A stretch of 64,000 nucleotides of DNA, taken from NCBI GenBank assembly GCA_026705465.1, contig JAPPAP010000033.1:62001-126000 (forward strand), written 5' to 3'. The position numbers were made by a program, and so were the translations under genes. This document shows, piece after piece, positions 6,646 through 27,729 of this stretch. This DNA comes from a bacterium. GTDB lineage: Bacteria; Actinomycetota; Acidimicrobiia; Acidimicrobiales; Bin134. How positions within the stretch are numbered: position 1 is the first letter of the stretch; each line of letters begins with the position of its first letter. The notes below the pieces were generated by a model. That model searched no databases, had not been told where the DNA came from, and was given only the letters and a program-made list of their open reading frames with translations.

Positions 6646-9494
6646 TGCTGGCCTTCACCCTCACCAGCCAGATCGTGTACCTCGGGGTGATAGACGGCTT
6701 GCTGGTCGGCTTGCTGGCCTTGGGCATTGTGCTGATCTACCGGGCCAGCGGGGTCATCAACTTCGCGGTGGGATCGCTCGGCGTGCTGTCGGCCAGCCTT
6801 CTGGCCTTGCTGGTGCTCACCTACGACTGGCCCTTCTGGCCCGCCGCCATCGTTGCGGTGATAGCAGGCGGCCTCGTGGCCGCCGCCTCGGAACTCACCG
6901 TGATCACCCGGTTGTTCCGAGCCCCCAGGGTCATCTTGCTGGTGGCAACAATCGGCATCGCCCAGCTCTGCGAGCTGCTCCAAGTGGCCCTGCCCGACAT
7001 AGAGACGACCATGGCTGTGAGATACCCGGTGGCGTTCTCCGGCCAGTGGGAGATTCTCGGTCTCCGGGTACGGGGTCCCGAGCTGATCGTGATCATCGTC
7101 GTTCCCGTCCTCACCGTGGCCCTCACCTACTACCTCCAGCGCACAGCACAGGGACGGGCGATTCGGGCCGCGGCCTCCAATCCCGACCTGGCCCGGCTCA
7201 CCGCCATCAACCCCAAGATCATCTCGACCGTCACCTGGATCATCGCGGGCCTGCTGGCGGCGGTGGCTCTGATATTGGTGGCGGGAATCAATGGCCAGCC
7301 CAGCGGCTTCCGGTCGCTAGGACCGGCCACCCTTGTCCAGGTTCTGGCCGCGGCCCTGATCGGGCGACTTCGCAACTTCCCGATGGCGATGATTGCCGGA
7401 GCGGCCCTCGGATTGCTCCGATCGCTGCTGGTCTTCAACTGGCCGACCACCGCGGGGCTCTACGACGGCTCGCTATTTTTGATCGTCATCGCCACCACGC
7501 TGGTGGCCAGCCGGCGGCTCACCGGCAGCGACGAGTCGTTCTCGTTCGTGCCCACCACCCGCCCGCTTCCCCACGCGGTGGCCCGCCTCTGGTGGGTCCG
7601 CCACTCGTCTCGCATCGGCATGGGGCTGCTCCTCGCCGCTGCGGCGATCCTCCCCTTCCTGATCACCCTGGCCTCGCGCCAACTCCTGTTCAGCGAGGTG
7701 TTGCTCTTCGCCCTGATCGGGATCTCGTTGGTGGTGCTCTCTGGGTGGACCGGTCAGATCTCACTGGGACAGGCCGCGCTGGCCGGCATCGGGGGATTGA
7801 CCACCGCGGCCTTGGTCGCCGGACGCGACATCGGGATCGGCCTGGGCGGAGCGTGGTTCACCCTCCCCCTTCCCGACATTCACTTCTTGTTGGCCGTGCT
7901 GGTGGGCGCGGCAGCCACTGGTGCCATCGCAGCAGTCATCGGGGTGGGGGCATTGCGGATTCGGGGCTTTCACCTGGCCATCGCCACTTTGGCGTTGGCT
8001 CTGCTGGGGCAGCAGTTTCTCTGGCGGCGGCCGTTCCTGTCCGGGGGCACCAATATCATCTCTCTCCCCCGAGCCACAGGGCCTGTCGATCTGGCCGATC
8101 AGCGCACCTACTACTTCTTCTCGCTGATTGCCCTGGTGGCGGTGATCGTTCTGGTGGCCAGGATGCGAGCCACCGGGGTAGGGCGCCGATGGCTGGCGGT
8201 GCGAGACAACAGCGCGGCGGCCTCGGCATTCACAATCTCGCCCTCCCGGGCCGGAATCCAAGCGTTCGTGGTGTCCGGGGTGATCGCCGGGCTCGGCGGC
8301 GGTCTGTTGGCCGGGCTGTACGTCTCCTTCGGGCTGACCGAGGAGTTCCAGATCCAAGATTCCATCGTGGTTGTCGCCATCGCGGTGATCGGCGGCGCCG
8401 GCACCGTGGTCGGTCCGATTCTCGGCGCCCTGTGGATCGTGGGCCTCCCCGCGATCTGGCCGGCCAACAACTTGGTGCCGCTTCTGACTTCCTCGATCGG
8501 GCTGCTGGTTTTGTTGATGTACTTTCCCGGCGGATTCGCCCAAGTGGTGCTCACCGGCCGCGATCGCTTCCTGGCCTGGTATGCGGGCCGGCTTCCCCAA
8601 CCCGAACCGGCGCCGAGACGAGAAGTGGCCAGCGTGGTTTCCCGATCGGAGGCCGCTTCTTCCCCTACTGGGCCAGTGCTGGTTGCCGACGAGGTGACGG
8701 TGGTTTTCGGAGGCCTGACAGCAGTCGACAACGCCTCTATCCGAGTCCGCTCCGGAGAGGTGGTGGGCCTCATCGGTACCAACGGGGCGGGCAAGACCAC
8801 GCTGATGAATGCCATCAGTGGATTCGTCCCGTGCTCCGGTCGAATCGAGTTCGAAGGCCGTCCCATCCAGAAGATGGCCGCCGACCAGCGAGCGGCGCTC
8901 GGTTTGGGACGGTCGTTTCAGCAGTCGCGGCTGTTTCCCGACTTGACCGTGCTCGAGACCCTGGCGGTGGCGGCGGAATCTCGCCAGCGAACCTCGTTCA
9001 CCGCCGCGGTCGGCTTCTTACCCAACGGCTATCGCCGCGACCGGGCACAAAGGGCCCACGCCCAAGACATCGTCGACTTCCTCGGCCTCGGCCCCTACGC
9101 CGACAAGTTCAACTCCGAGCTCTCAACCGGCACCCGTCGCATTGTGGAGCTTGGCTGCCTCTTGGCATTGGAGGCCCGTGTGCTGTGCCTCGACGAGCCC
9201 ACTGGAGGGGTCGCCCAGCGCGAGGTTGAGGCGTTTGCCCCCTTGCTGTTGTCGATCAAAGACGAACTCGGGGCCGCCATGTTGGTGATCGAACACGACA
9301 TGCCCATGATCATGCAGATCAGCGACCGGATCTGCTGTCTGGAAGCAGGCCGGGTGATCGCTGCGGGCTCGCCCGCCGAAATTCGCACCGATCCCGCCGT
9401 CATCGCCTCCTACCTCGGTACCGACGAACGGGCCATCCGCCGGTCGGGGACAATTGATCCAGGCGAGGAAGCCCATTTCCCAACGCCGACCTAG
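6645..9494 (+). CDS. LivH-LivM-LivG fusion: two permease domains and an ATPase (module A)
   Basis: 949 residues combine three subunits of a branched-chain amino acid-type ABC importer. LivH-like permease occupies about 1-290, LivM-like permease about 330-645, and a LivG-like ATPase about 688-930 with Walker A GTNGAGKTT (711-719), an LSTG signature variant (826-829) and Walker B ending DEP (850-852). With the LivF domain supplied by the preceding gene, the two polypeptides contain every Liv membrane and ATPase part. The start ATG overlaps the preceding stop by one base. Expected in the cytoplasmic membrane, driving uptake of the ligand of the 2783-4315 binding protein. The substrate class cannot be inferred. 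Confidence 0.9.
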   Translation: MLAFTLTSQIVYLGVIDGLLVGLLALGIVLIYRASGVINFAVGSLGVLSASLLALLVLTYDWPFWPAAIVAVIAGGLVAAASELTVITRLFRAPRVILLVATIGIAQLCELLQVALPDIETTMAVRYPVAFSGQWEILGLRVRGPELIVIIVVPVLTVALTYYLQRTAQGRAIRAAASNPDLARLTAINPKIISTVTWIIAGLLAAVALILVAGINGQPSGFRSLGPATLVQVLAAALIGRLRNFPMAMIAGAALGLLRSLLVFNWPTTAGLYDGSLFLIVIATTLVASRRLTGSDESFSFVPTTRPLPHAVARLWWVRHSSRIGMGLLLAAAAILPFLITLASRQLLFSEVLLFALIGISLVVLSGWTGQISLGQAALAGIGGLTTAALVAGRDIGIGLGGAWFTLPLPDIHFLLAVLVGAAATGAIAAVIGVGALRIRGFHLAIATLALALLGQQFLWRRPFLSGGTNIISLPRATGPVDLADQRTYYFFSLIALVAVIVLVARMRATGVGRRWLAVRDNSAAASAFTISPSRAGIQAFVVSGVIAGLGGGLLAGLYVSFGLTEEFQIQDSIVVVAIAVIGGAGTVVGPILGALWIVGLPAIWPANNLVPLLTSSIGLLVLLMYFPGGFAQVVLTGRDRFLAWYAGRLPQPEPAPRREVASVVSRSEAASSPTGPVLVADEVTVVFGGLTAVDNASIRVRSGEVVGLIGTNGAGKTTLMNAISGFVPCSGRIEFEGRPIQKMAADQRAALGLGRSFQQSRLFPDLTVLETLAVAAESRQRTSFTAAVGFLPNGYRRDRAQRAHAQDIVDFLGLGPYADKFNSELSTGTRRIVELGCLLALEARVLCLDEPTGGVAQREVEAFAPLLLSIKDELGAAMLVIEHDMPMIMQISDRICCLEAGRVIAAGSPAEIRTDPAVIASYLGTDERAIRRSGTIDPGEEAHFPTPT

Positions 9495-9523
9495 TCGAAT
9501 AGTTGACCCATACTGGAGAGGCC

Positions 9524-11047
9524 ATGCGGATCCTGTACATCGACATCGACACCCTTCGGGCCGATCACTTGGGGTGCGCGGGATACCACCGCAACACCAC
9601 GCCGAACATCGACGCGCTAGCCGCTGAGGGGGTGCGGTTTTCCAACGTCTATGCGTCCGACGTGCCCTGCCTGCCCAGCCGTACCGCGCTGATCACCGGG
9701 ATGTTCGGGATTCGCAACGGGGTGGCCAACCACGGGGGCATGGCGGCCGACCTGCGGCCCCAAGGGCCAGATCGCAGCTTCTTCTCCACCATCGCGGCCA
9801 GCTCTTGGGCGTCGCGCTTCTACTGGTCGGGCTACCACACCGCCTCGATTTCCAGCTTTCCATTCCGCCACTCGGCCACGTGGTGGAACAGCGGTTTCAT
9901 GGAGTCGATGAACCTGATGCGCGGCTTTGGCGGCGAGCGGGCCGACCAGGTGCTGCCCGGCGCTTTGCGCTGGCTCAGCGACAACGCCGAGGCCGAAGAC
10001 TGGTTCCTCCACGTCCACTTATGGGATCCCCACACCCCCTATAACGCCCCGGCCGACTACGGAAACCCGTTCGAAAGCGATCCCCCGCCGGCCTGGCACA
10101 CCGAGGAAGTGCGGGCCCGCAACTGGCCGTTGGCCGGACCGCATTCGGCCCAAGAGCCCTGGGGGTTCAAACCCGACGAGTGGGGCCCTCCTCCGCCTCG
10201 CCATCCGTGGAACCTGTCGAACATGGACGAGGTCAAGCAGACCTTTGACGGCTACGACACCGGCATCCGCTACGCCGACGACGCGGTGGGGACGCTGGCC
10301 GACAAACTGGCCGGTCACGGCGTGCTGGACGAGACCGCCATCCTGGTCTCCTCCGACCACGGCGAGGCGTTCGGCGAACTGGGGGTGTACGCCGACCACC
10401 AGGCCGCCGACGAGGCCACCTGCCATATCCCCTCGGTGCTGCGCTGGCCGGGGATCGAACCCCAGGTCCACGAGGGGCTGCTCTATCACCTGGACGTGGG
10501 CGCCACCATCGTCGATCTGGCCGACATCGACATCCCCTTCCACTGGGACGGCATGTCGGTGGCCGACGACATTCGCACCGGCGACCACCGAGGGCGGGAG
10601 TCCTTGGTGCTGTCTCAGGGGGCGTGGTCAGTACAGCGGGGCGTGCGCTGGGGAGACCACCTCTACCTGCGGACCTGGCATGACGGCTATCACGCGGCCT
10701 GGAACGAGGAGATGCTGTTCGACATCGCCTCCGACCCCCACGAAACCACCGACCTGGCCGATCAAGCCCCATCGGGGCTGGCCGAAGGCCGGGACATGCT
10801 CCAGTCTTGGACCGACGAACAGATGACCCGCAGCTACTCCCCCGTCGACCCTCTCAAGATCGTGCTAGCCGAGGGCGGCCCCTTCCATTGCAAGGGGCAC
10901 CTGCCCGAGTACCTGGAGCGCCTCGAAGCGACCGGCCGAACCGAAGCCGCGGCGGTTCTTCGCCAACGCCATCCCATCGACGACGCATCCACCGGCTTGT
11001 CGGGGATCCCCAAAGACGTGCTCGAGAGCCTCGGAATCGACGTTTGA
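9524..11047 (+). CDS. Type I sulfatase, cytosolic (module A)
   Basis: 507 residues from an ATG preceded by GGAGAG; a TTG at 9503 would add seven residues. The alkaline-phosphatase-fold sulfatase signature is clear: metal ligands in the first strand (D7, D9) and C49-L-P-S-R53 followed by T-A-L-I-T-G, the site where Cys is converted to formylglycine. Late in the protein SSDHG supplies further metal ligands. No signal peptide, so hydrolysis of sulfate esters (or phosphonate/phosphate esters in some relatives) occurs inside the cell. It follows the importer genes after 29 nt and overlaps the next gene by 1 nt, consistent with desulfation of an imported sulfated compound (inference). A second sulfatase sits in module B. 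Confidence 0.88.
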   Translation: MRILYIDIDTLRADHLGCAGYHRNTTPNIDALAAEGVRFSNVYASDVPCLPSRTALITGMFGIRNGVANHGGMAADLRPQGPDRSFFSTIAASSWASRFYWSGYHTASISSFPFRHSATWWNSGFMESMNLMRGFGGERADQVLPGALRWLSDNAEAEDWFLHVHLWDPHTPYNAPADYGNPFESDPPPAWHTEEVRARNWPLAGPHSAQEPWGFKPDEWGPPPPRHPWNLSNMDEVKQTFDGYDTGIRYADDAVGTLADKLAGHGVLDETAILVSSDHGEAFGELGVYADHQAADEATCHIPSVLRWPGIEPQVHEGLLYHLDVGATIVDLADIDIPFHWDGMSVADDIRTGDHRGRESLVLSQGAWSVQRGVRWGDHLYLRTWHDGYHAAWNEEMLFDIASDPHETTDLADQAPSGLAEGRDMLQSWTDEQMTRSYSPVDPLKIVLAEGGPFHCKGHLPEYLERLEATGRTEAAAVLRQRHPIDDASTGLSGIPKDVLESLGIDV

Positions 11048-16367: not shown

Positions 16368-16838
16368 TCAGAGCAGCTTGCTGTTGTCCCAGTTGAGCAT
16401 CTTGCCTACGGGAGTTAGCTCGATGGTGGCGTTGAGGTTCTTCTGGTAGTAGTCCCGCGTCTGCTCGGGCATCACATCCCGGGCAGTGCGGTACGGGGCG
16501 TATTTCTCATCGAGGGCCTGGGCGATCTGTTGGGCCAACTCCTCTGTGGGCTCGATGATCCGGCCCACGCACTCCACGTGGACTGCCCGTAGCTCGGCCC
16601 ACCGATCCCCTGCTTCCACCAAGAAAGAGCAGCGCTGGTCGTTGCGGAGCCGCATCACCTTCTTGCCCCGGGTGACCATGTAGATCTTCTGATCCAGCAC
16701 CACGTACCACACTGGCAAAGCGATGGGCTGGCCATTGGCCCGCAGCGTGGTGAACACGCCGTTCACCGACGTCTCCAGCATCTCCCAGCACTCCTCGGGC
16801 GACATCCGCACCGTGGGCTTGTTCTTCTTCTCAGCCAT
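16368..16838 (-). CDS. PPOX-class (pyridoxamine 5'-phosphate oxidase-fold) flavin/F420-binding protein
   Basis: 156 residues with the split-barrel fold pattern of the PPOX family: N-terminal helix, then strands around NGVFTTLRANGQPIALPVWY and the GKKVMRLRNDQRCSFLVEAG region that binds the cofactor phosphate. Actinobacterial members commonly use F420 or FMN for reduction of small molecules; which one applies here is not visible. Its ATG lies inside the last codons of the acyl-CoA ligase gene (8-nt overlap), so it is the last gene of the sulfatase-binding protein-Sec protein-ligase operon. It converges with the crotonase gene, with 12 bp between stops. Confidence 0.75.
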   Translation of the reverse strand: MAEKKNKPTVRMSPEECWEMLETSVNGVFTTLRANGQPIALPVWYVVLDQKIYMVTRGKKVMRLRNDQRCSFLVEAGDRWAELRAVHVECVGRIIEPTEELAQQIAQALDEKYAPYRTARDVMPEQTRDYYQKNLNATIELTPVGKMLNWDNSKLL

Positions 16839-18393
16839 CGATCAGCTCCCTGAGCTCGCGGCGAAGGATTTTTCCCGAAGCCGACTTGGGGATGGCATCG
16901 GTGAACCGCACGCCCCCGAGGTGTTTGTAAGTGGCCATGTGTTCGGCTACATAGGCCTTCACCGCCTGCTCATCAAGCCCTGAGTCGGGAGAGGGAACCA
17001 CAAAGGCCAGCGGCACCTCCCCGCTCTCCTCATCGGGGCGGCCGATCACCGCGGCATCGGTGATCTGAGGATGCTCCACCAGCAATGCCTCCAGCTCGGC
17101 CGGGGCCACTTGGAAGCCCTTGACCTTGATGAGCTCCTTCAGCCGGTCGACGATGTAGACGTGACCGTCGCCGTCGATCCGGGCGATGTCGCCGGTGTGG
17201 AGCCAGCCGTCCTCGTCGACGGTCTCGGCGGTGGCCTCCGGGTTGTTGAGGTATCCCTTCATCACCTGGGGGCCGCGAATCCACAGTTCGCCCTCCACGT
17301 CGATGGGCAGGTCCTCCCCCGAGTCGGAGTCCACGATCCTGATCTCGGTGTTGGCCACCGTCAGTCCCACCGACCCGGCCTTAGAGTTGCCCGGTGGAGT
17401 GGCGTGGGAAATCGGGCTGAGCTCGGTCATCCCGTAACCCTGCACCACTTCGCAGCCGATCCGCGTCGATGCCTCAGCTGCCACTTCAGCCCCCAGCGGG
17501 GCTGCCCCCGAGAGCACCTGGCGCAGCGACGAGAGGTCGTAGTCGACCACCGCGGGGTGCTTGGCCAGCGCCAGCACGATGGGAGGCACCGCGAAGAAAC
17601 GAGTCACCTGATGGCGTTCGATGAGCGACAGCGCCTGGGCCAAGTCGAAGCGGGGCATCGTCACCAGCGTTGCCCCGTGATGAAGCTGGTCGTTCATGAG
17701 CACCTGCATTCCGTAGATGTGGAAGAAGGGCAGCACGGCCAGCACCACATCGCTGGGCTGGGATGCGACCGACGAGGCACCCTGCTCGATGTTGTTGACC
17801 AGGTTGGCGTGGGTGAGCATGACCCCCTTGGGCAATCCGGTAGTACCCGACGAGTAAGGCAGGACCACTACGTCGTCGTGGGGGTCGACCTCCACCTGGG
17901 CGATCGGGTCGCCCATCAGCGACCGCATGGCAATGCCCGCCGACGGGCTGTCGGAGTCGATCACCACTACATCGCCCGCCACTCCGGATTGGCCCATGGC
18001 CTCCTGGGCTTGAGCTGCAAACCCCTCGGCGGCGAACACCATCGTGGCCTGCGAGTCGGTGAGCTGGTAGGCGATCTCATCTGCACCGTAAGTGGGGTTG
18101 ACCGTGGTGACCGCGCCCCCCGCCACCGCCACCGCGTGAAACACCACCGGGTACCACGGGGAATTGGGGGCGACCAGCGCAGCCACATCGCCCCGCTGAA
18201 ACCCTGCGGCGACCAATCCGCCAGCTAGGGAGCGCACCTCCTGCTCGAGCTGCCCAAAGGTGAGCGCCCACTCCCCCGGCCCGTCGATCACCGCCGGTTG
18301 ATCGGCCAGTTCTCCGGCTCGCTGAAGCACGAACCCGGTGACTGGCTGCGAGCTGAGGAGCTCGTCTGGCAGCAGGCTGGCGTGGACGATCAC
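16831..18393 (-). CDS. AMP-dependent acyl-CoA synthetase (4-coumarate/medium-chain ligase-like)
   Basis: 520 residues, full length for the ANL superfamily. The phosphate-binding P-loop SSGTTGLPKG, the adenine motif YGMTELSP, the hinge motif GWLHTGD and the catalytic C-terminal lysine in SASGKILRREL are all present, so it should activate a carboxylic acid to its acyl-adenylate and then CoA thioester. It has a GTG start that overlaps the TGA of the upstream Sec-protein gene (GTGA), a sign of translational coupling. In the context of module B it probably activates the imported acid (inference). Substrate specificity cannot be read reliably. Confidence 0.92.
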   Translation of the reverse strand: MIVHASLLPDELLSSQPVTGFVLQRAGELADQPAVIDGPGEWALTFGQLEQEVRSLAGGLVAAGFQRGDVAALVAPNSPWYPVVFHAVAVAGGAVTTVNPTYGADEIAYQLTDSQATMVFAAEGFAAQAQEAMGQSGVAGDVVVIDSDSPSAGIAMRSLMGDPIAQVEVDPHDDVVVLPYSSGTTGLPKGVMLTHANLVNNIEQGASSVASQPSDVVLAVLPFFHIYGMQVLMNDQLHHGATLVTMPRFDLAQALSLIERHQVTRFFAVPPIVLALAKHPAVVDYDLSSLRQVLSGAAPLGAEVAAEASTRIGCEVVQGYGMTELSPISHATPPGNSKAGSVGLTVANTEIRIVDSDSGEDLPIDVEGELWIRGPQVMKGYLNNPEATAETVDEDGWLHTGDIARIDGDGHVYIVDRLKELIKVKGFQVAPAELEALLVEHPQITDAAVIGRPDEESGEVPLAFVVPSPDSGLDEQAVKAYVAEHMATYKHLGGVRFTDAIPKSASGKILRRELRELIDG

Positions 18394-19421
18394 TGGGCGC
18401 TTGGGACCGGCGTGATTCCGTGGAACGGACTGCCGGCTTCCTGATACTCCTCGAGCAACTTGAAGAACTCCTCGCCAAACGGGCTTTCGCCCCGAAGGGG
18501 CATTGCCGCCCGGACAACGGTGAAGTCCAACGGCGCCAACCGCGCGGCGGCGTCGAAGTGGTGAGCCGCCCCTGCCTCGTCACCAGCGCGCCGCAGATGG
18601 GCGGCGAGGCGGAAGTGCAATCGGGCAGCCAACTCGTCTTCGTCCAGGTCGGCGATCTCGCTGCTGGCGTCATCGGGAACAACACCCTGGTGAACCCAGG
18701 CGCGGATCTGGTCGAAGTGCCCCTCGCGAGTGCGGCCGGTGAATTCGCTGAACATGTCGGTCCCGAACTCATTGGCGTTGGGACGGGCGATGCGACCGTT
18801 TTCGTCGATCCACACCACCGCAGGCACATTGCTGATGGCGTACAACTCGGTGAGAAGGTGGTCGGGATCCATGAGCACCGGATAAGTGATGCCATCAGCC
18901 AGCACCCGCACCTCATCAGTGGCTTCGTCAATGGCCACCGCAATCACCTGGAAGTCGTCATCGGCCAGCTCATCTTGCAATTCCTGCCACCCGGGCAGGT
19001 CGAAGGCGCATCCTCACCAACTAGAAAAGGCAACCAAGAGCCGCCTTTTGCCGGCATAGTCGGACAGGCTCCGGTCCACGCCATCGAGATCGGCAAGTGT
19101 GAAGTCCGGCGCTTGGCGGTCGAGCAGGGCGGCCCGGCGAGTGGCGTTGGGCTGGCCCACCACAACAGTGTTCGTGTCGGGATCCACCAGGGTGGGTCGG
19201 TCCAAGCCACTGGCGGCAGCCGCTACATCGACCTTGTCGCCCACCTCGATGACCGAGCGGTCTCTCACCGGGACACACTGATCATCGCGGCAAAGGCCCT
19301 CAGGCTTGAGCGTCCACCCGATCGCGGCTGGTAGTCCCTCCGGCTCGATCAGCGGGCGCCCATCGACCCATTCTCCTGAAGCAGTGGCTACCTCGTCGCC
19401 GAGGACGGTGATGCTCGTCAT
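18390..19421 (-). CDS. Candidate selenoprotein: thioredoxin-fold (redoxin/ResA-like) protein with TGA at the active site
   Basis: 343 residues if the TGA at 19014-19016 is read as selenocysteine (residue 136). The frame is otherwise uninterrupted from the ATG at 19421 (ribosome-binding site AAAGGAG) to 18390. Residues about 85-230 form a redoxin domain, with the start of the fold (APDFTLADLDG) before the TGA and the rest (FDLPGWQELQDEL, then the VPAVVWID cis-proline loop) after it. The TGA falls where the first active-site Cys belongs, giving FSSW-Sec-G-Cys138. A C-terminal helical tail of about 100 residues looks TPR-like. No signal peptide. It follows the binding-protein gene by 13 nt and its stop overlaps the ligase start. 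If TGA is a true stop the gene is split, but loss at exactly this codon would be a coincidence. Confidence 0.8.
18983..19013 (-). other. SECIS-like hairpin just downstream of the in-frame TGA
   Basis: On the coding strand, 14 nt after the TGA, CCTGCC (18999-18994) and GGCAGG (18988-18983) form a perfect 6-bp stem around the 5-nt loop CGGGT. A TT/AA pair can extend the stem across a small bulge. Bacterial SECIS elements lie directly 3' of the UGA, with an apical loop roughly 16-37 nt away that has a G in its first two positions; here the loop begins 20 nt after the TGA and has G second. The hairpin sits in coding sequence, so its persistence would be constrained by both roles. Confidence 0.6.
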
Positions 19422-19434
19422 GTTGGATACTCCT

Positions 19435-20931
19435 TTACTCGACGGGTTCGAATGGAATTGAATCGCCGACCGGCAGCCAAGTCCTCTCTTCGGAGTCGAA
19501 CTCGTAACGCTGCACATGTGAGCCAGCTGAGTGCTTGTCGGGCGACAGGCTGGCGCCGGCCATGGCGGGAAGGTCAAACGTTCCCATGCGCTCGCCCGCC
19601 GCTATGAAAGTCTCCGGGGTGATGTTGCCTCCGGCCTCCTCCAGAATCCTGACGGTCAGCACAAAAGCCCGACAATGGGTGGTTATGCCGAGGACCACCT
19701 CGCTGTCGTCCAAATCCAGCGGCTCATCGCCGAACCGCTCCTCATAGGCGCCAATGCACTGCTGCACGCCGGGATCGGCGATGGCCTGCTCAGGTGAGGG
19801 TTTGTGGGTGGTCACCGCGAAAGTCCGAGCCAGCGACTCGTTGGTGAGCGACAAGTCATCGCTGATCGTTGTGCGGTCGGCGGCCTGCCCGTTGGTCAGG
19901 GCGATGGGGACATCCCAGCCGAGCCGTTGCGTCGACTGGATGATGCCGTGCACATTGGACAGGTTGAGGATCAGATCAACCCCGTCGGCTTCCATTCGAT
20001 AGGAAATATTGTCGGTCGTCGGTTGGTCGGCCACCGCGTCTCCGGTAGGAGCGCCCCTCGGGTAGACCCCGACGACATTTATGCCTGCGTCCTCCAGTAA
20101 CGGCCGTATCGCATCGGCGTACTCTTTGTCAGGAGGAGCCTCGTAGTAGATGCCCACGTTGTGGCCGTCGAGGTCGCCGGCCCGGATCATCTCGATGACC
20201 CCTCCCACCCGCATGTGGGTCTGGTTCATCTCGGCGGCGAAGAACAGGCCGTTGGAACGGGCCTGGCGCTCAGTGTTCTCGCCAAAGTGACCGACATAGG
20301 GATGTCCGTGAGTCTCGGTAATGCACAAGGCATAGTCCTCAAGGAACTGGCCGATGACCACAAACACTTTCCTGTCCTCCATCAACTCGACACAAACCGC
20401 CTCGTTGGCGGCGGCACCGAGAGGGAAGAACAAGCTGACGTGGACCACCACATCTCTACCATTGATCCCGCCCCGCTGGTTCAGGTCATCAACCAGCGCT
20501 GCGTAGAAGTTCTCCACCGGGAAGGGGCTGAGGTCGACGCCAATCGACGCCAGCATTTCGATGTCGATGGCAGCAATACCGATAGCGATCTCCGTTTCGG
20601 TTACACCCTGGTAGCTGGCGGTGAGCACAATCGGGGTTGGCTCCGGCGTTGGCTCATCGGGGGTCTTGGCCGGCTCGTCGGCAGGAGTTTCCGCGGACTC
20701 TTCGGGAGCTGTCTCGGCCGGCTCGTCGGCCGGTTCCTCAACTGGCTGATCGGATGGCTCATCGGATGGTTCATCAGCCGGAGCAGAGGTTTGCTCTTGG
20801 GCTGCGGATGGCTCCGAGGTGTCAGCACTGCCGTCATCGTCATTGCCGCCGCACGCTGCGGCCACGAGCGCCACGGCGATGAGCAACCACCACCATCTCC
20901 GTATGCCTCTTGAACCTCTGATTTCGGTCAC
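19435..20931 (-). CDS. Liv-type ABC transporter solute-binding lipoprotein (module B)
   Basis: 498 residues from a GTG with a strong Shine-Dalgarno (AGGGGAGGGA). The signal peptide ends in VAAAC (lipidated C27). Residues about 30-105 are a Pro/Glu/Asp-rich tether with DEP-type repeats, then the periplasmic-binding fold of the Liv/amide family. It is the counterpart of the protein at 2783-4315. It lies downstream of the module B sulfatase and upstream of the Sec protein, acyl-CoA ligase and PPOX genes on the minus strand, while its membrane partners (MFS-LivF and LivHMG fusions) are on the plus strand beginning at 22640. Ligand unknown. Confidence 0.85.
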   Translation of the reverse strand: MTEIRGSRGIRRWWWLLIAVALVAAACGGNDDDGSADTSEPSAAQEQTSAPADEPSDEPSDQPVEEPADEPAETAPEESAETPADEPAKTPDEPTPEPTPIVLTASYQGVTETEIAIGIAAIDIEMLASIGVDLSPFPVENFYAALVDDLNQRGGINGRDVVVHVSLFFPLGAAANEAVCVELMEDRKVFVVIGQFLEDYALCITETHGHPYVGHFGENTERQARSNGLFFAAEMNQTHMRVGGVIEMIRAGDLDGHNVGIYYEAPPDKEYADAIRPLLEDAGINVVGVYPRGAPTGDAVADQPTTDNISYRMEADGVDLILNLSNVHGIIQSTQRLGWDVPIALTNGQAADRTTISDDLSLTNESLARTFAVTTHKPSPEQAIADPGVQQCIGAYEERFGDEPLDLDDSEVVLGITTHCRAFVLTVRILEEAGGNITPETFIAAGERMGTFDLPAMAGASLSPDKHSAGSHVQRYEFDSEERTWLPVGDSIPFEPVE

Positions 20932-20965: not shown

Positions 20966-22540
20966 TCATTTCAGGCCTAGCCGAGCGTATTGGTCGTCGG
21001 GCGCTTGTACTTCGTTGAGCGCGGTGTGGAGCAGGTCGAGCATCTCATCGGCCAACGACTCACTGCTGCGGTTCTCCTGCTCGTTCGGGTCGACGTCGAG
21101 GTCGAACAGGAAGTGGCGGTCGTTGCAGGCGTTCACCGCCACCCACAGCGGGAGCGTGTCGCCCTGCTGGTAGGGCTGGCGGATCACCGGCACCTCCGAC
21201 CCTGGCATGTTGTCCAGCCAGGCTCGGTGGTCGGGCGGGGGCAATCCGGGCATACCGATATCGCCGAACGGCATGGTGGACCACCGGTTGGACCACATCG
21301 ACAGCGGGAAGTTGTCCCCGGTCGCGCCTCGGGCGTACTTGTGCTGGCCGTCGGTGACTTGTACCCAGCCCCCGAACACTCCGCCCAGCGCCCAGTCCCG
21401 GATGACGTCGACTTCGCCAGTTAGCAGCGGAGCCATGGAGCGGCCATGGGTGGTCTGCACCACCTCGGCATCGAAGACGTCGGCCACGGTGGCGAAGATG
21501 TCCACATTGGTGGTCAGCGCATCGCACTCTCCCCCACCGGGCTTCCCCGGCCAGGACACCAAAAGCGGCGTGTGGCCCAGAGGCTCGTACTGGGGCACTC
21601 CGGGCTTACCCCAGATATCACGCCCCTCCCGCTCGTCCCCCAGATAATGGCCGTGGTCGGTACACACGATCAGCGCGGTGTCGTCCCACAGGTTCTGCTC
21701 GTCGAATCGATCCAGAATCTTCCCAAACCAGTGGTCGATCATCGACAGCTTGGCCCCGTAGTTGGCCCGCACGTGGCGGCCTTCTTTCTCCGAGAGGTTG
21801 CCGGAGGCGATACCCCCGTCGACATAGGGCGGCCAGATGATCCACTCCTCATCCCACGCCTCGTCGAAATATCGGCCTGCCCACGGTGCCGGCGTGTCGA
21901 ACGGCTCGTGAGGATCGAACTCATCCACGAACATGAACCACCGGTCGTGGTGAGGCGTGGCCTCGGCCAAGAATTGCGCCGCCGCGCTCATCGTCTTCGG
22001 CCCGGGGTAATCCTCTTCCGAGCGGAAGAACGTCCGAGACCGGTCATAGCCCCGGTCCATTTCCTCAAGCCCCCACATCTTCGACCACCACCAGCCGCCC
22101 TTTCGGGCCGGCATTGTCGGAGTCCCGGCCCAGCTGGGGTCGTAGAAGGTGCGCCACGGATCGCCCTCGTGGCCCCGCAAATAGTCCCAGCAGTGGAAAT
22201 CGGTGTGGTAGTTCTCGCCGCCGGTCTCAAATAGATGGGGATGGTCGGTAAACAGTGCGGTGGTCACCCCGCTGCGGCGCAGTACTCGGGTAATGGTTTC
22301 CTCCCACAGCTCCACCGACCCCCACGGCTTCCACAGAAAATCCAGCGCCCCGCACAGGATGTCGTGGCGGGCCGGCATGCACGGCAGCGACCCCGTCACA
22401 TGGCGGGTGAACCGAGTGGCTCGCTCAGCGGCGAACCGGTCCAAGTTCGGCGTCTCGAACTCGGTGCCGCCGTAGCTCCCCAGCATGTGCCGATTCAGCG
22501 AATCCAACAAGATGACCGCAACATTCGACGGTGCGCTCAT
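20966..22540 (-). CDS. Type I sulfatase, cytosolic (module B)
   Basis: 524 residues from the ATG at 22540, which has a purine-rich ribosome-binding site; codons upstream of it are not sulfatase-like. The formylglycine motif is C54-M-P-A-R58 with the following D-I-L-C-G, metal ligands lie in the first strand (LLDSLN) and in CTDHGHYLGD. No signal peptide, so intracellular. It is the first gene of a five-gene minus-strand operon (sulfatase, binding protein, Sec protein, ligase, PPOX) and diverges over 99 bp from the MFS-LivF fusion. Sulfatase plus Liv-type importer is thus found in both modules. Distinguishing sulfate from phosphate ester substrates by sequence alone is not possible. Confidence 0.87.
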   Translation of the reverse strand: MSAPSNVAVILLDSLNRHMLGSYGGTEFETPNLDRFAAERATRFTRHVTGSLPCMPARHDILCGALDFLWKPWGSVELWEETITRVLRRSGVTTALFTDHPHLFETGGENYHTDFHCWDYLRGHEGDPWRTFYDPSWAGTPTMPARKGGWWWSKMWGLEEMDRGYDRSRTFFRSEEDYPGPKTMSAAAQFLAEATPHHDRWFMFVDEFDPHEPFDTPAPWAGRYFDEAWDEEWIIWPPYVDGGIASGNLSEKEGRHVRANYGAKLSMIDHWFGKILDRFDEQNLWDDTALIVCTDHGHYLGDEREGRDIWGKPGVPQYEPLGHTPLLVSWPGKPGGGECDALTTNVDIFATVADVFDAEVVQTTHGRSMAPLLTGEVDVIRDWALGGVFGGWVQVTDGQHKYARGATGDNFPLSMWSNRWSTMPFGDIGMPGLPPPDHRAWLDNMPGSEVPVIRQPYQQGDTLPLWVAVNACNDRHFLFDLDVDPNEQENRSSESLADEMLDLLHTALNEVQAPDDQYARLGLK

Positions 22541-22639
22541 GAACCCCCCTGCCCTGTCTTTGGCATCTCCTTGATCTTCTGACGCTACTCTCATGGGCCA
22601 GCACAGGCCGAATATGGCCGCCCGAGCTTGGGGGAGACG

Positions 22640-24841
22640 TTGGACAACGAGCAGACCCAAAGCGAGTCCATCGACGCGCTGGCCACCACGGTGTTGGAGG
22701 GGGAGGCGGCTCGGCGCGACGCCCAAAAGGCCGAGGTGTTGTTTCCCGACGACCTGCTGCCCGGTGTGGGCGGCGAGGAAACAACCCTCAAGGAGGGCTT
22801 ACTCAAGGGGGGTTACCGGACCTTTTTCATCCTGCTCGCGCTGAACAGCCTCGACGAACTGGAGAACAGCGCGGTGGCCATCTTGGGCCCCGACATCGGC
22901 GAGAGCTTCGGGGTGAGCGATGGGGCCATAACCGCCATCAGCACGGCATCGCTCATGTTCTTCGTGCTCGGGGCCGGGCCCATGGGGTGGCTGGCCGACC
23001 GTTTCCGGCGCGGCCCCATCGTCGGCGTTGCCAGTGGGGCCTTCGCCGCCTTCAGCGCTCTTTCCGGAGCGGCAGTGAACGCCTTGATGTTCTTCTTCAT
23101 GCGGTTCTTCGCCGGCATGTCCAAGGCCAACACCATCACTGTGCATCCCAGCATGCTGGCCGACACCTATCCGCTTCAGACCCGAGGCCGCATGTTTGCC
23201 ACCAACGCCGGGGTAGGGCGCATCTTCTCTGCTGTCAGCCCGATTCTGGCTGGGGGCATCGCAGTGTGGATCGGAGGCGACGACGGCTGGCGCTGGGCGT
23301 TCTACCTTCTGGGACTACCCACCGCCGCCTTGGCATTCTTGGCCTTCTTCTTGCGGGAGCCACCCCGGGGCCAATGGGAGCAGGAGCATGTGCTGGGCTC
23401 CGGCCTCAAACAGGACAACAAGATGCCGATTTCGGTGGAGGCTGCCTTCACCCGCATCTGGAACATCGACACCATCCGCAACATGACCATCGCGTTCGCG
23501 GCCATGGGTTTCGCCCTCTTCCCGGCCAGCTCGATCCAGTCGTTCTTCTTGAAGGAAGAGTTCGGCCTCGACGCCTTGGAGCGCGGGTTGGCGGTGGCCC
23601 CCGCGGGGGTCGGCCTGCTGGTGTTCCTTCCTTTTGTTGGGCGCCGGTTCGATGCCACCTTCCGAAGGGACCCCGATCGGGCGATGCGGCTCATCGGCAT
23701 CCTCCTGCTGCCGATCGGCGTGCTGGTACCGATCCAGTACGCCATGCCCAATCTCGGCTTATTCATGACTCTCTCCGCCATCAACTCCACCTTCCTGGGC
23801 GGGGCATTTGCCATGGTGCAGCCCGCCATTCAAGCGGTGTTCCCCTATCGACTGCGGGGCATGGGGACTGCATTCTTGACCTTCTTCATGGTCATGGTGG
23901 GCGGTGTGGGGGGCAGCATCATCGCCGGCTTCCTCCAAAACGAGCTCGGCGAACAGACCGCCATCACCGTCATCACCGCGGTCGCCATGCCCATCGGCGC
24001 CTACTTCGTGCTCCGAGGGGCCAGCCGGCTGCGTCGCGACCTCTCGCTGGTCGTCGGCGAGCTTCAAGAAGAACAAGAGGAAGAACGCCGTCAGGCCGAG
24101 ACCGATCCCGACAACATGCCCGCCATCCAGGTAGCCCATGTCGATTTCAGCTACGGGCAGGTGCAGGTGCTTTTCGATCTCGGCTTCGAAGTGCGCAAGC
24201 ACGAGACACTGGCCCTGCTGGGCACCAACGGTGCGGGCAAGTCCACCGCGCTCAAGGTGATCACCGGCCTGGCCATCCCCGAGCGGGGGGTGGTGCGCCT
24301 GCACGGCCAAACCATCACCTACGCCACGCCTGAGCAGCGGGCGGCTATGGGTCTGCACATGCTGCCGGGTGGGGCCGGGGTGTGGAGCGACCTGTCGATA
24401 CGCGACAACCTGCTCATGGGGGCCTACGCCTACCGGAGAGATCCCAGTGACCGGGACCGGCGCATCGAACAAGTGCTCGACATGTTTCCCGACCTCGGCA
24501 GACGACCCAGTGAGCGGGCCGGAAACCTTTCAGGCGGCCAGCAGCAGATGCTGGCTTTGGCCCGGGTGATGCTGCACGAGCCCGAGGTGCTGATGATCGA
24601 CGAGCTGTCGCTGGGACTGGCCCCGGTGGTGGTGCAATCGCTTTTGGAAACGATTGAGGAACTCAAGGAACAGGGCCAGACCATGATCATCGTGGAGCAG
24701 TCTCTGAACGTGGCGCTGGCCATCGCTGACCGGGCTGTTTTCTTGGAGAAGGGGCAAGTGCGCTTCGAAGGACCGGCCCAAGAGCTTGCTGAACGCGACG
24801 ACTTGGCCCGGGCGGTGTTCCTGGGCACCGAGGGCGGCTGA
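22640..24841 (+). CDS. MFS-type permease fused to LivF-type ABC ATPase (module B)
   Basis: 733 residues from a TTG preceded by GGGGGAG; another TTG lies at 22628. Architecture matches the 4402-6645 gene: N-terminal cytosolic segment, an MFS-like domain (about 40-465), a glutamate-rich linker (QEEQEEERRQ) and a LivF-type ATPase with Walker A GTNGAGKST (528-536), signature LSGGQ (630-634) and Walker B MIDEL. The stop and the next ATG share one base (TGATG), as in module A. The membrane part contains acidic and basic residues in the loop after helix 2 like true MFS proteins. Together with LivHMG it would complete a Liv importer; the purpose of the MFS part is unknown. Confidence 0.88.
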   Translation: MDNEQTQSESIDALATTVLEGEAARRDAQKAEVLFPDDLLPGVGGEETTLKEGLLKGGYRTFFILLALNSLDELENSAVAILGPDIGESFGVSDGAITAISTASLMFFVLGAGPMGWLADRFRRGPIVGVASGAFAAFSALSGAAVNALMFFFMRFFAGMSKANTITVHPSMLADTYPLQTRGRMFATNAGVGRIFSAVSPILAGGIAVWIGGDDGWRWAFYLLGLPTAALAFLAFFLREPPRGQWEQEHVLGSGLKQDNKMPISVEAAFTRIWNIDTIRNMTIAFAAMGFALFPASSIQSFFLKEEFGLDALERGLAVAPAGVGLLVFLPFVGRRFDATFRRDPDRAMRLIGILLLPIGVLVPIQYAMPNLGLFMTLSAINSTFLGGAFAMVQPAIQAVFPYRLRGMGTAFLTFFMVMVGGVGGSIIAGFLQNELGEQTAITVITAVAMPIGAYFVLRGASRLRRDLSLVVGELQEEQEEERRQAETDPDNMPAIQVAHVDFSYGQVQVLFDLGFEVRKHETLALLGTNGAGKSTALKVITGLAIPERGVVRLHGQTITYATPEQRAAMGLHMLPGGAGVWSDLSIRDNLLMGAYAYRRDPSDRDRRIEQVLDMFPDLGRRPSERAGNLSGGQQQMLALARVMLHEPEVLMIDELSLGLAPVVVQSLLETIEELKEQGQTMIIVEQSLNVALAIADRAVFLEKGQVRFEGPAQELAERDDLARAVFLGTEGG

Positions 24842-27729
24842 TGGAGATCGCTTCAGCCTCGGTCTTCGGTACCTGGATAACCCAGCAACTGGCCTTCAAT
24901 GGGGTGGTCAACGGCTTGGTGACCGGACTGGTGGCCATGGGAATCGTGCTGATCTACCGGTCCACCCGGGTCATCAACTTCGCGGTAGGCAACATGGGGA
25001 TCATCTCGGCCTCGATGATGGCGCTGCTGGTGCTGAACTACGGCTGGGGATTTTGGCTGGCTCTGCCCCTCTCACTGCTGCTGGGTGTTTTGTTTGCCGC
25101 CGCGGTGGAGCTGACCGTGATTCGCCGCTTGTTCAACTCTCCCCGAGTGATCGTGCTGGTGGCGACGGTTGGCATCGCCCAACTAGCCCAGCTGGTGATC
25201 TCCCAGCTTCCCGACATCGACGCCGCCGGCCAGAGATATCCGGTGATCGTCGGGTCAGTGTGGGAGGACGTCTGGTTCACCGAGATCCGAGTGCGCGGTC
25301 CGCAACTTGTCATTCTCATCGCGGTGCCGGTACTGGCCCTGCTGTTGGGCTGGTTCATGAACCGAACCTCATTCGGCAAGTCGGTGGCTGCATCGGCTAA
25401 CAACCCCGACCTCTCCCGCCTGTCAGGGATCAACCCCAAGACGGTATCCACCTTCGTATGGGTGATAGCCGGGTTGTTGGCCTCGTTGTCGATGATTTTG
25501 CTGTCGGGCTCAACCGGGCAGGTAACCGGCCTGTCCAATCTGGGACCGGAGACGCTGGGCAAGGCCATGGTGGCCGCGGTGCTGGCCTCTATGGTCTCAT
25601 TTCCCCGGGCCATGGTGGGCGGGATGTTAATCGGATTTTTCGGCGACCTATTCCGGTTCAACTTCCACGCCGAGACCGGCCTCATTGACTTCGTCATCTT
25701 CATAGCCGTGCTGGTGGCCGTGTACTTCCAGAGCCGCAGCCAGGGCGAAACCGGAGTCTTCTCTTTCGCGCCTAAAGTGCGCGCCATCCCTCAGCGGCTG
25801 CGCCAGGTGTGGTGGCTTCGGCACTTGTCCAAGATCGCGTTAGGCGCGCTGGCAGTGCTCGGCATCGTGCTGGTGCAGCTCCCCGGCATCGCCGACCTGC
25901 CCTCTCGCCAACTCCTGTACGCAACGGTGCTGTGCTTTGCGGTCTGCGGACTGTCGGTCACCATCATCACCGGCTGGGCCGGTCAGCTCTCCCTGGCTCA
26001 GATGACCTTCGCCGGCATGGGAGCCCTGTTCGCCGCCAGCCTCCGCAGGGGGCTGTCCATGGATTTCACGGTGGGGACTGGGTTTTTGCCTGGGGACGCA
26101 TTGTCGTACGACTTTTTCGACGTCCAATTCGAAAGCAGCGGCATCCCGTTCATGGTGGCCATTCCACTGGCCGCCTTGTTCTCCGCACTGGTTGCCGCAG
26201 TGATCGGGGTCGGGTCACTGCGAGTGCGCGGCCTCTATCTGGCGGTTACCACCTTTGTGTTTGCACTAGCCGCTCAGCAGTACCTCTATCGCAGGCCGTT
26301 CTTCACCGGGGGCAGCACATCTTCGGTCTCGTTCCGTCGGGGCGAGCTGTTTGGACTCGAACTTGAGCAAAAGGACTACTACTACGTTTGCCTGGCTTTC
26401 TTGCTGATCGCAATGATCATCGTAAATCGACTGCGTCGATCAGGGGTGGGCCGCTCCATCATCGCGGTGCGCGACAACAGCGATGCTGCCTCGGGCTACA
26501 CGGTCGGTCCGGTGCGCTCCAAGCTGTCGTCGTTCGCGTTGGCCGGAGGAATCGCTGGATTAGGCGGAGCGATGCTGGCCGGACTGGTACAGAACGTCCC
26601 GATCAGCGAACGGTTCTTCCAAGTGGAGCACTCGCTACAGCTTGTGGGCATGGTGGTCATCGGGGGTCTGGGCTCGTCGGTTGGCGCGGTGTTGGGAGCG
26701 ATTTGGATCTACGGGCTTCCCAATCTGTTCAACAACGATGAAACCGTGGCCTTGTTCTCCTCCAGCGTCGGGCTGTTGCTGGTACTCATGTATTTTCCGG
26801 GTGGGCTCATTCAGATCGGCTACAGCGCACGAAACGCCCTCATCGGCTTAGCCGAACGGCGTCTCGGACCCGATCCCGGCGGCAAAGCCATCCAAACCAC
26901 TCCCACCAGCCTGACCCGGCTTGACGATGCTCGGCCGGCCACCGATCCCATGCTGGCTGGACACGACATCAGCGTGCGGTTCGGCGGTGTGCACGCGGTT
27001 TCGGAGGCCACTGTGCTGGTCCATCCCGATGAGATTGTGGGTCTCATCGGGACCAACGGCGCCGGCAAGTCCACATTCATGAACGCGGTTGGCGGCTATG
27101 TCCCGTCCACCGGCCGGGTAGAGCTGCTCGGCACCGATATCACCAGGCTCACAGCACCTCGAAGAGCCCGAGCCGGTCTGGGCCGCACGTTCCAGGCCGC
27201 GGCCCTGTTCCCGGAGTTGACGGTTCGAGAGACGGTGCAAGTGGCCTTGGAGGCCCGGGGCCGAACACCACTCCTGAGCACCGCCCTGCACCTCCCCCAT
27301 ACATTCGCCCTAGAACGACGGCGTCGGACCGAGGCCGATGAACTGATCGACTACCTAGGACTGGGGCGCTACGCGGATTCCTATATCAGCGACCTGTCCA
27401 CTGGGACCCGGCGCATCGTGGAGATCACTGGTTTGCTGGCCTTGGACACCCGGGTGTTGTGCCTCGATGAGCCCACCGCCGGGGTGGCCCAGCGCGAGAC
27501 CGAGGCATTCGGTCCGCTCATCGTCAACATTCGCCGGGAGCTGGGGGCGGCCATGTTGATCATCGAGCACGACATGCCCCTGATCATGAGCATTAGCGAC
27601 CGGGTGTACTGCCTCGAGGCCGGAAAGGTCATCGCCGAGGGAACCCCTTCGGAGGTCCGAAACGACCCCTTGGTGATCGCCAGCTATCTCGGCACCGACG
27701 AACGGGCCATCGCCATTAGCGACGGCTGA
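24841..27729 (+). CDS. LivH-LivM-LivG fusion: two permease domains and an ATPase (module B)
   Basis: 962 residues with the same order as its module A paralogue: LivH-like permease (about 1-300), LivM-like permease (about 335-665) and LivG-like ATPase (about 700-955) with Walker A GTNGAGKST (737-745), an LSTG signature variant starting at 852 and a DEPTAGVAQRE Walker B/D-loop region. It is translationally coupled to the MFS-LivF gene. The two fusions are similar along their whole length, so the pair was duplicated as a unit (inference). Likely imports the ligand of the 19435-20931 lipoprotein. Confidence 0.9.
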   Translation: MEIASASVFGTWITQQLAFNGVVNGLVTGLVAMGIVLIYRSTRVINFAVGNMGIISASMMALLVLNYGWGFWLALPLSLLLGVLFAAAVELTVIRRLFNSPRVIVLVATVGIAQLAQLVISQLPDIDAAGQRYPVIVGSVWEDVWFTEIRVRGPQLVILIAVPVLALLLGWFMNRTSFGKSVAASANNPDLSRLSGINPKTVSTFVWVIAGLLASLSMILLSGSTGQVTGLSNLGPETLGKAMVAAVLASMVSFPRAMVGGMLIGFFGDLFRFNFHAETGLIDFVIFIAVLVAVYFQSRSQGETGVFSFAPKVRAIPQRLRQVWWLRHLSKIALGALAVLGIVLVQLPGIADLPSRQLLYATVLCFAVCGLSVTIITGWAGQLSLAQMTFAGMGALFAASLRRGLSMDFTVGTGFLPGDALSYDFFDVQFESSGIPFMVAIPLAALFSALVAAVIGVGSLRVRGLYLAVTTFVFALAAQQYLYRRPFFTGGSTSSVSFRRGELFGLELEQKDYYYVCLAFLLIAMIIVNRLRRSGVGRSIIAVRDNSDAASGYTVGPVRSKLSSFALAGGIAGLGGAMLAGLVQNVPISERFFQVEHSLQLVGMVVIGGLGSSVGAVLGAIWIYGLPNLFNNDETVALFSSSVGLLLVLMYFPGGLIQIGYSARNALIGLAERRLGPDPGGKAIQTTPTSLTRLDDARPATDPMLAGHDISVRFGGVHAVSEATVLVHPDEIVGLIGTNGAGKSTFMNAVGGYVPSTGRVELLGTDITRLTAPRRARAGLGRTFQAAALFPELTVRETVQVALEARGRTPLLSTALHLPHTFALERRRRTEADELIDYLGLGRYADSYISDLSTGTRRIVEITGLLALDTRVLCLDEPTAGVAQRETEAFGPLIVNIRRELGAAMLIIEHDMPLIMSISDRVYCLEAGKVIAEGTPSEVRNDPLVIASYLGTDERAIAISDG

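Follow-up and report, generated by a model that had tools for sequence, protein, structure and literature searches.

A probable selenocysteine-containing redoxin of Acidimicrobiia with a U-G-C site, compared with catalogued UGC-type redoxins

A C-x-x-C active site is the hallmark of ResA/TlpA proteins. UGC-containing selenoproteins of the redoxin type have also been catalogued, and the excerpts of the three sources available to us describe them as 'Prx-like (UGC-containing)' selenoproteins, with 46 sequences in the 2008 GOS survey (PMC2398784), as a 'UGC-containing Prx-like protein' in a later review (PMC9312934), and as a 'UGC-containing TlpA disulfide reductase family protein', cd02966, in the latest review (PMC13188914). 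Among the NCBIfam models, the best match to the protein described here was NF041054, WAxxUGC_long (ResA-like WAxxUGC motif-containing protein), with 193.5 bits and an E value of 6.3e-57. A literature search returned nothing on WAxxUGC, nothing on selenoproteins in connection with a UGC motif or ResA-like proteins, nothing on selenocysteine (Sec) or selenoproteins in Acidimicrobi- taxa and nothing on selenoproteins of the TlpA type in Actinobacteria, and the sponge-symbiont papers listed were, judged by their titles, on other subjects.

The gene and its in-frame UGA codon

The gene lies in a 64,000-nucleotide stretch of an Acidimicrobiales genome, which is referred to here as the window. The features of the gene itself are as follows.

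18390..19421, minus strand: candidate redoxin selenoprotein gene with an ATG start, a single internal TGA and a terminal TGA; PF00578 and PF08534 over cut-off
19430..19434, minus strand: AGGAG, probable ribosome-binding site upstream of the redoxin ATG, assigned from the sequence
19014..19016, minus strand: in-frame UGA, putative Sec codon 136; TGA in 17/17 genus loci, and 71 TGA plus 15 Cys codons among 86 homologues
19008..19010, minus strand: Cys138, probable resolving Cys of U-G-C; U/C-G-C in all 86 homologues examined

The initial annotation had described a frame from 19421 to 18390 interrupted only by the TGA at 19014-19016, with FSSW before it, G-C-A-F-D-L-P after it, and redoxin sequence continuing in the same frame on both sides. 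All of this was confirmed. The read-through product has 343 residues with Sec at position 136, the residues around the site are AFSSW-U-G-C-AFDLPGWQEL, and the matches to the AhpC-TSA profile (60 bits, cut-off 26) and the Redoxin profile (52.6 bits, cut-off 26.6) ran unbroken across the TGA.

The first search covered 41 genomes, namely the own genome and 40 relatives, and 22 of the 41 belong to the genus. A close homologue with 78-100% identity was detected in 17 of the 22 genus genomes, and codon 136 was TGA in all 17 loci (L009-L025). When ten of the other 16 genus loci were compared with the window copy, dN/dS was low in all ten, at 0.12-0.21 upstream of the TGA and 0.03-0.20 downstream. 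In the order-wide search, 117 of 298 genomes contained matches at E <= 1e-22. The site codon was then read in 86 homologues across the order, a picked subset of the matches from the genus-level and order-level searches, and was TGA in 71 and a Cys codon in 15. The alignment of homologues, in which Cys at this position in close relatives was to count as support for Sec, thus revealed no codon type other than these two. The 86 included L156, a U-G-C protein with TGA that stood outside the codon-bias, hairpin, tree and C-x4-C counts, as well as G201 and G066, for which the site was Cys on reading although the order-wide search had listed TGA for both. Fifteen named relatives were found in public genomes, of which 13 carried Acidimicrobi- names, one was 'marine group bacterium Sva0996' and one was 'bacterium'. 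Plasmids and viral contigs were also searched for redoxin relatives, and none was found.

An ordinary list of open reading frames splits the gene into 19014-19577 and 18390-18980, as would be expected if translation really ended at the TGA, or if the TGA had arisen by pseudogene mutation or by an error in sequencing, leaving a truncated protein of 135 residues and a remainder that is dead or a separate gene. However, a sequencing error does not explain a TGA shared at codon 136 by 17 loci from 17 genomes, purifying selection was observed downstream of the TGA in 10/10 comparisons, and the site was TGA or a Cys codon in every one of the 86 homologues. This conservation in the genus and the order, together with the dN/dS values, led us to reject a sequencing error, a pseudogene and a plain stop, and we regard such a reading as extremely improbable. 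Because ordinary gene calling cuts genes of this kind in two, those of uncultured bacteria readily escape notice.

Selenocysteine machinery, Sec/Cys switches and a downstream hairpin

SelA (405.6 bits), SelB (271.2 bits) and SelD (356.1 bits) were all found over cut-off in the own genome (G000), with the SelA and SelB genes adjacent on contig C3 and SelD on contig C19. The SelD gene (L052, G000:C19:53941-54885) carries an in-frame UGA of its own, in the sequence AYSHGAGUAGK. The presence of selA, selB, selC and selD had been named beforehand as a check, and it held for selA, selB and selD, while selC was recovered as a 3' part only, at a contig edge. The genome search gave no tRNA-Sec over cut-off in G000, ARAGORN and Rfam did not find one around selA/selB (C3:8000-27000), and a pattern search indicated tRNA-Sec places in G006 and G014 and none of that kind in G000. 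A tRNA-Sec over cut-off was present in all nine other genus genomes searched. When the surroundings of the tRNA-Sec in the one-contig relative G006 were mapped to G000, they aligned from base 1 of C3 onward, and the first 51 nt of C3 (L096, G000:C3:1-51) equalled nt 42-92 of the G006 tRNA-Sec. The same 51 nt were identical in G014, G012 and G019, G016 and G027 showed one or two base differences, and the 5' part of the tRNA was not found in the G000 assembly. The tRNA-Sec therefore appears to be missing from G000 because contig C3 begins inside the gene, and selC was most likely cut by the assembly at the edge of C3, approximately 16 kb from selA. The contig break inside this gene is an example of how an assembly gap can mimic the absence of a trait.

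The Sec/Cys state of the redoxin was compared with the occurrence of SelA. SelA was detected in 51 of 52 tested TGA genomes (23/24 and 28/28 in two genome sets) but in only 3 of 15 tested Cys genomes, which were G161, G300 and G066. In this tally, G189 was counted as having SelA from two pieces each under the cut-off, G225 (Cys, with a 19.7-bit SelA match) was scored as lacking it, the TGA copy of some of the 52 genomes belongs to the sister clade described below, and 15 genomes whose Sec copies were read are left out. The exception among the TGA genomes was G013, which gave no SelA match yet possesses a tRNA-Sec. Fisher's test gave p = 9e-10 uncorrected for relatedness, a value that overstates independence because the sequences are related. 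On a quick tree built from 85 proteins, at least six changes between Sec and Cys were counted, three of them forced by starred branches. Among three starred independent pairs, SelA agreed in direction with the Sec/Cys change in a mean of 2.5 and opposed it in none, and the sign test on these pairs (median p = 0.25) involved too few of them for significance. As the repeated switches mostly track SelA, the clade offers a useful natural test set for the retention of Sec.

These data also bear on whether suppression or selenium-free recoding might insert Cys or Trp at the UGA. Cys is indeed the residue in 15 of the 86 homologues. In contrast, the genome holds SelA, SelB, SelD and part of a tRNA-Sec, and SelA over cut-off is missing from 12 of the 15 tested Cys genomes while nearly all tested TGA genomes possess it. 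UGA is moreover also a stop codon here, since the window gene and several of the genus copies end in TGA. Reading of UGA as another amino acid is unlikely given the presence of SelA, SelB and SelD and the association of SelA with TGA, and we assign it a minimal likelihood.

We consider it very probable that the gene encodes a selenoprotein in which UGA codon 136 specifies Sec. The initial annotation had proposed that Sec forms part of a redoxin active site of the U-x-C type, and this was upheld by the occurrence of TGA or Cys in 86/86 homologues and by selA, selB and selD, together with the 3' part of selC at the contig edge. The codon would be decoded by SelB and tRNA-Sec, and a short hairpin with its loop 20 nt downstream may guide the decoding.

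18983..18999, minus strand: bSECIS-like hairpin CCUGCC-CGGGU-GGCAGG, loop 20 nt after the UGA, proposed from its pattern in Sec versus Cys sequences

With the U of UGA counted as 1, nt 18-23 would pair with nt 29-34 around the 5-nt loop CGGGU of the window. The bSECIS model, as given in the portion of the latest review available to us, has a stem of 4-16 bp and a loop of 3-9 nt located 16-37 nt from the UGA, with a G among the first two nucleotides of the loop and an MFE of -7.5 kcal/mol or lower (PMC13188914). The window hairpin falls within these limits with 6 bp, the loop CGGGU, a distance of 20 nt and -14 kcal/mol over 61 nt. This stability of the region after the UGA was no better than that of shuffled sequences (z = +1.19), and against synonymous recodings z ranged from -1.56 to +1.53 in 14 Sec sequences and was -2.20 in the Cys sequence L028.

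Six pairs with a G[G/U] loop occurred in 36 of 41 Sec sequences versus 5 of 15 Cys sequences. The 41 set aside 16 of the 17 genus sequences, which were counted separately and all had the feature (16/16), as had 12 of 13 sequences grouped as paralogs; the latter group included L029 in the codon and hairpin counts, though the tree places it in the main clade. Among the five exceptions in the 41, four break the outermost pair and the fifth carries an internal A-C mismatch in its stem. The loop feature alone did not separate the two forms, being present in 13 of the 15 Cys sequences. Codon choice within the hairpin also differed: the Leu codon was CTG in 37/41 Sec sequences (29% elsewhere in these genes) and in 8/15 Cys sequences (40% elsewhere), the Gly codon was GGG in 26/37 Sec sequences (16% elsewhere) and in 0/6 Cys sequences (27% elsewhere), and CCC-GGG was used by 28 of 40 Sec and none of five Cys sequences encoding LPGWQ. 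Some Cys sequences differ from LPGWQ in the protein, which accounts for a share of this contrast in the hairpin. The codon bias extends beyond the hairpin, with codon +11 also strong in Sec sequences. The strongest bias in these sequences, exceeding that of the hairpin codons, was at Ser codon 134, two codons upstream of the UGA (window 19020-19022, minus strand), where AGT accounted for 25 of 39 Ser codons. The putative SECIS hairpin is supported by its pattern only.

Genomic neighbours, fold and proposed chemistry

The genes adjacent to the redoxin gene were compared in 13 genus loci, with flanks of at most 5 kb.

16831..18393, minus strand: acyl-CoA ligase (AMP-binding, PF00501), whose GTG start overlaps the redoxin stop; adjoins the redoxin gene in 13/13 genus loci
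19435..20931, minus strand: Liv-type periplasmic binding protein (PF13458); 12/13 genus loci
20966..22726, minus strand: sulfatase (PF00884); 13/13 genus loci

The initial annotation had taken an operon with a sulfatase, a Liv-type binding protein and an acyl-CoA ligase to be an unusual setting. The arrangement was indeed kept within the genus, but the neighbours differ in the examined loci of other genera. None of the three genes was found at L065 and L066, two extra-genus loci fetched in the same manner, and the Cys homologue L028 has an adjoining distant AMP-ligase of 32% identity. The neighbours in other genera include genes for acyl-CoA dehydrogenase, enoyl-CoA hydratase, thiolase-like proteins or FAD-oxidoreductase. 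Ten proteins from seven picked loci were scanned and eight neighbour proteins were sought in 30 loci. Enoyl-CoA hydratase, acyl-CoA dehydrogenase, thiolase-like protein and AMP-ligase recurred, varying by genus, and 14 of the 30 loci had none of the eight; these frequencies are uncorrected for a background rate, and we base no functional claim on them. As the loci of other genera have different neighbours, the sulfatase/Liv/ligase setting says little on function.

The surrounding DNA also contains fused transport genes. The 737-aa frame 22628-24841 (plus strand) contains both an MFS domain (80-342) and a LivF-type ABC ATPase (517-659), apparently an unusual fusion; it was matched in 11 of the 13 genus loci with 82-93% identity over 521-600 residues within the fetched flank. 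In two further plus-strand frames, 24841-27729 (962 aa) and 6645-9494 (949 aa), a Liv-type ATPase is joined to Liv permease domains. The window therefore holds two fused transport systems, and a sulfatase gene is located close to each of them (20966-22726 and 9503-11047, respectively).

An AF2 model built with 11 sequences had a mean pLDDT of 77.1 and was poor from residue 301. Its best PDB matches were ResA, with 1su9 giving a TM score of 0.82 by target length and 0.34 by query length for the redoxin domain only, and among the 50 PDB matches listed ResA structures reached up to 0.83 by target length. On this model, the product is a predicted ResA/TlpA-fold redoxin with a Sec136-Gly-Cys138 site. 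The C-terminal part is helical, and TPR_2 scored 18 bits, under its cut-off of 27. No hydrophobic stretch, signal peptide or membrane anchor was seen by eye at the N-terminus, and the redoxin is therefore probably cytosolic. The N-terminal domain contains a second conserved cysteine pair.

19275..19292, minus strand: Cys44-x4-Cys49; present in 85/85 aligned proteins (75 by strict pattern, 10 by eye)

In the proposed chemistry, the selenolate of Sec136 would attack a disulfide or peroxide, and Cys138 would resolve the intermediate as a selenenylsulfide. The reducing electrons might arrive via the Cys44-x4-Cys49 pair or from a separate reductase; a relay through the pair is a tentative proposal that we hold to be somewhat unlikely. 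A Sec protein in which C-x4-C is structural, as a metal site or a static disulfide with no electron relay, comes close to an even chance. Both the conservation of the pair in Sec as well as Cys forms and its position outside the redoxin domain suit a structural role, whereas the Pfam and NCBIfam matches included no metal-binding family, which is weak evidence against it. That the protein protects or regenerates oxidised thiols in the context of acyl-CoA metabolism is conjecture. The complete picture, a cytosolic Acidimicrobiia seleno-redoxin subfamily that would combine Sec-Gly-Cys and the invariant C-x4-C in a one-chain relay, serve the reduction of thiols, CoA-disulfides or peroxides alongside acyl-CoA metabolism, and switch to Cys upon loss of the Sec machinery, is speculative, and we think it improbable that all of its parts hold together.

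Comparison with catalogued UGC-type redoxins

The likeness to NF041054 covers residues 26-219 against profile positions 9-202 of 354 and includes the U-G-C. The score is nevertheless under the curated cut-off of 300 bits, the W-A of the motif is replaced by F-S in the window protein, and the C-terminal part falls outside the best stretch. Seven relatives (five Sec, two Cys) scored 183.7-218.3, and three part-length sequences of another clade scored 265.2, 276.3 and 294.4, the last with 190 residues. Since none of the ten scored sequences reached 300, the identity of that other clade with NF041054 proper can only be inferred. The redoxin subfamily of the window passes no existing NCBIfam model. 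The quick tree split the window clade from the NF041054-like clade with an SH-aLRT of 99, long branches meeting there as a warning, and the window clade looks like a sister subfamily of the latter. A second, NF041054-like protein was present in three genus members (L155 in G013:C63, G017:C526 and G018:C53), each listed with one TGA; one of the three, that of G013, was examined, and its U-G-C site was confirmed.

Regarding ResA/TlpA proteins, the modelled thioredoxin fold is of the ResA type. The window clade differs in having U-G-C, or C-G-C in its Cys forms, and the window protein adds an N-terminal domain with C-x4-C and a helical C-terminus, no membrane anchor being apparent by eye. It resembles the UGC-containing Prx-like proteins in its PF00578-type domain and in U-G-C at 136-138, a likeness drawn from their descriptions in the excerpts available to us. 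Published entries of the UGC type include MDE0950781.1 and MBL6689828.1. The claim of a new selenoprotein accordingly fails for the type, as redoxin selenoproteins of the UGC type are already catalogued in NF041054 and, as far as the excerpts go, in PMC2398784, PMC9312934 and PMC13188914, and what is new in the window protein lies at the level of a subfamily at most.
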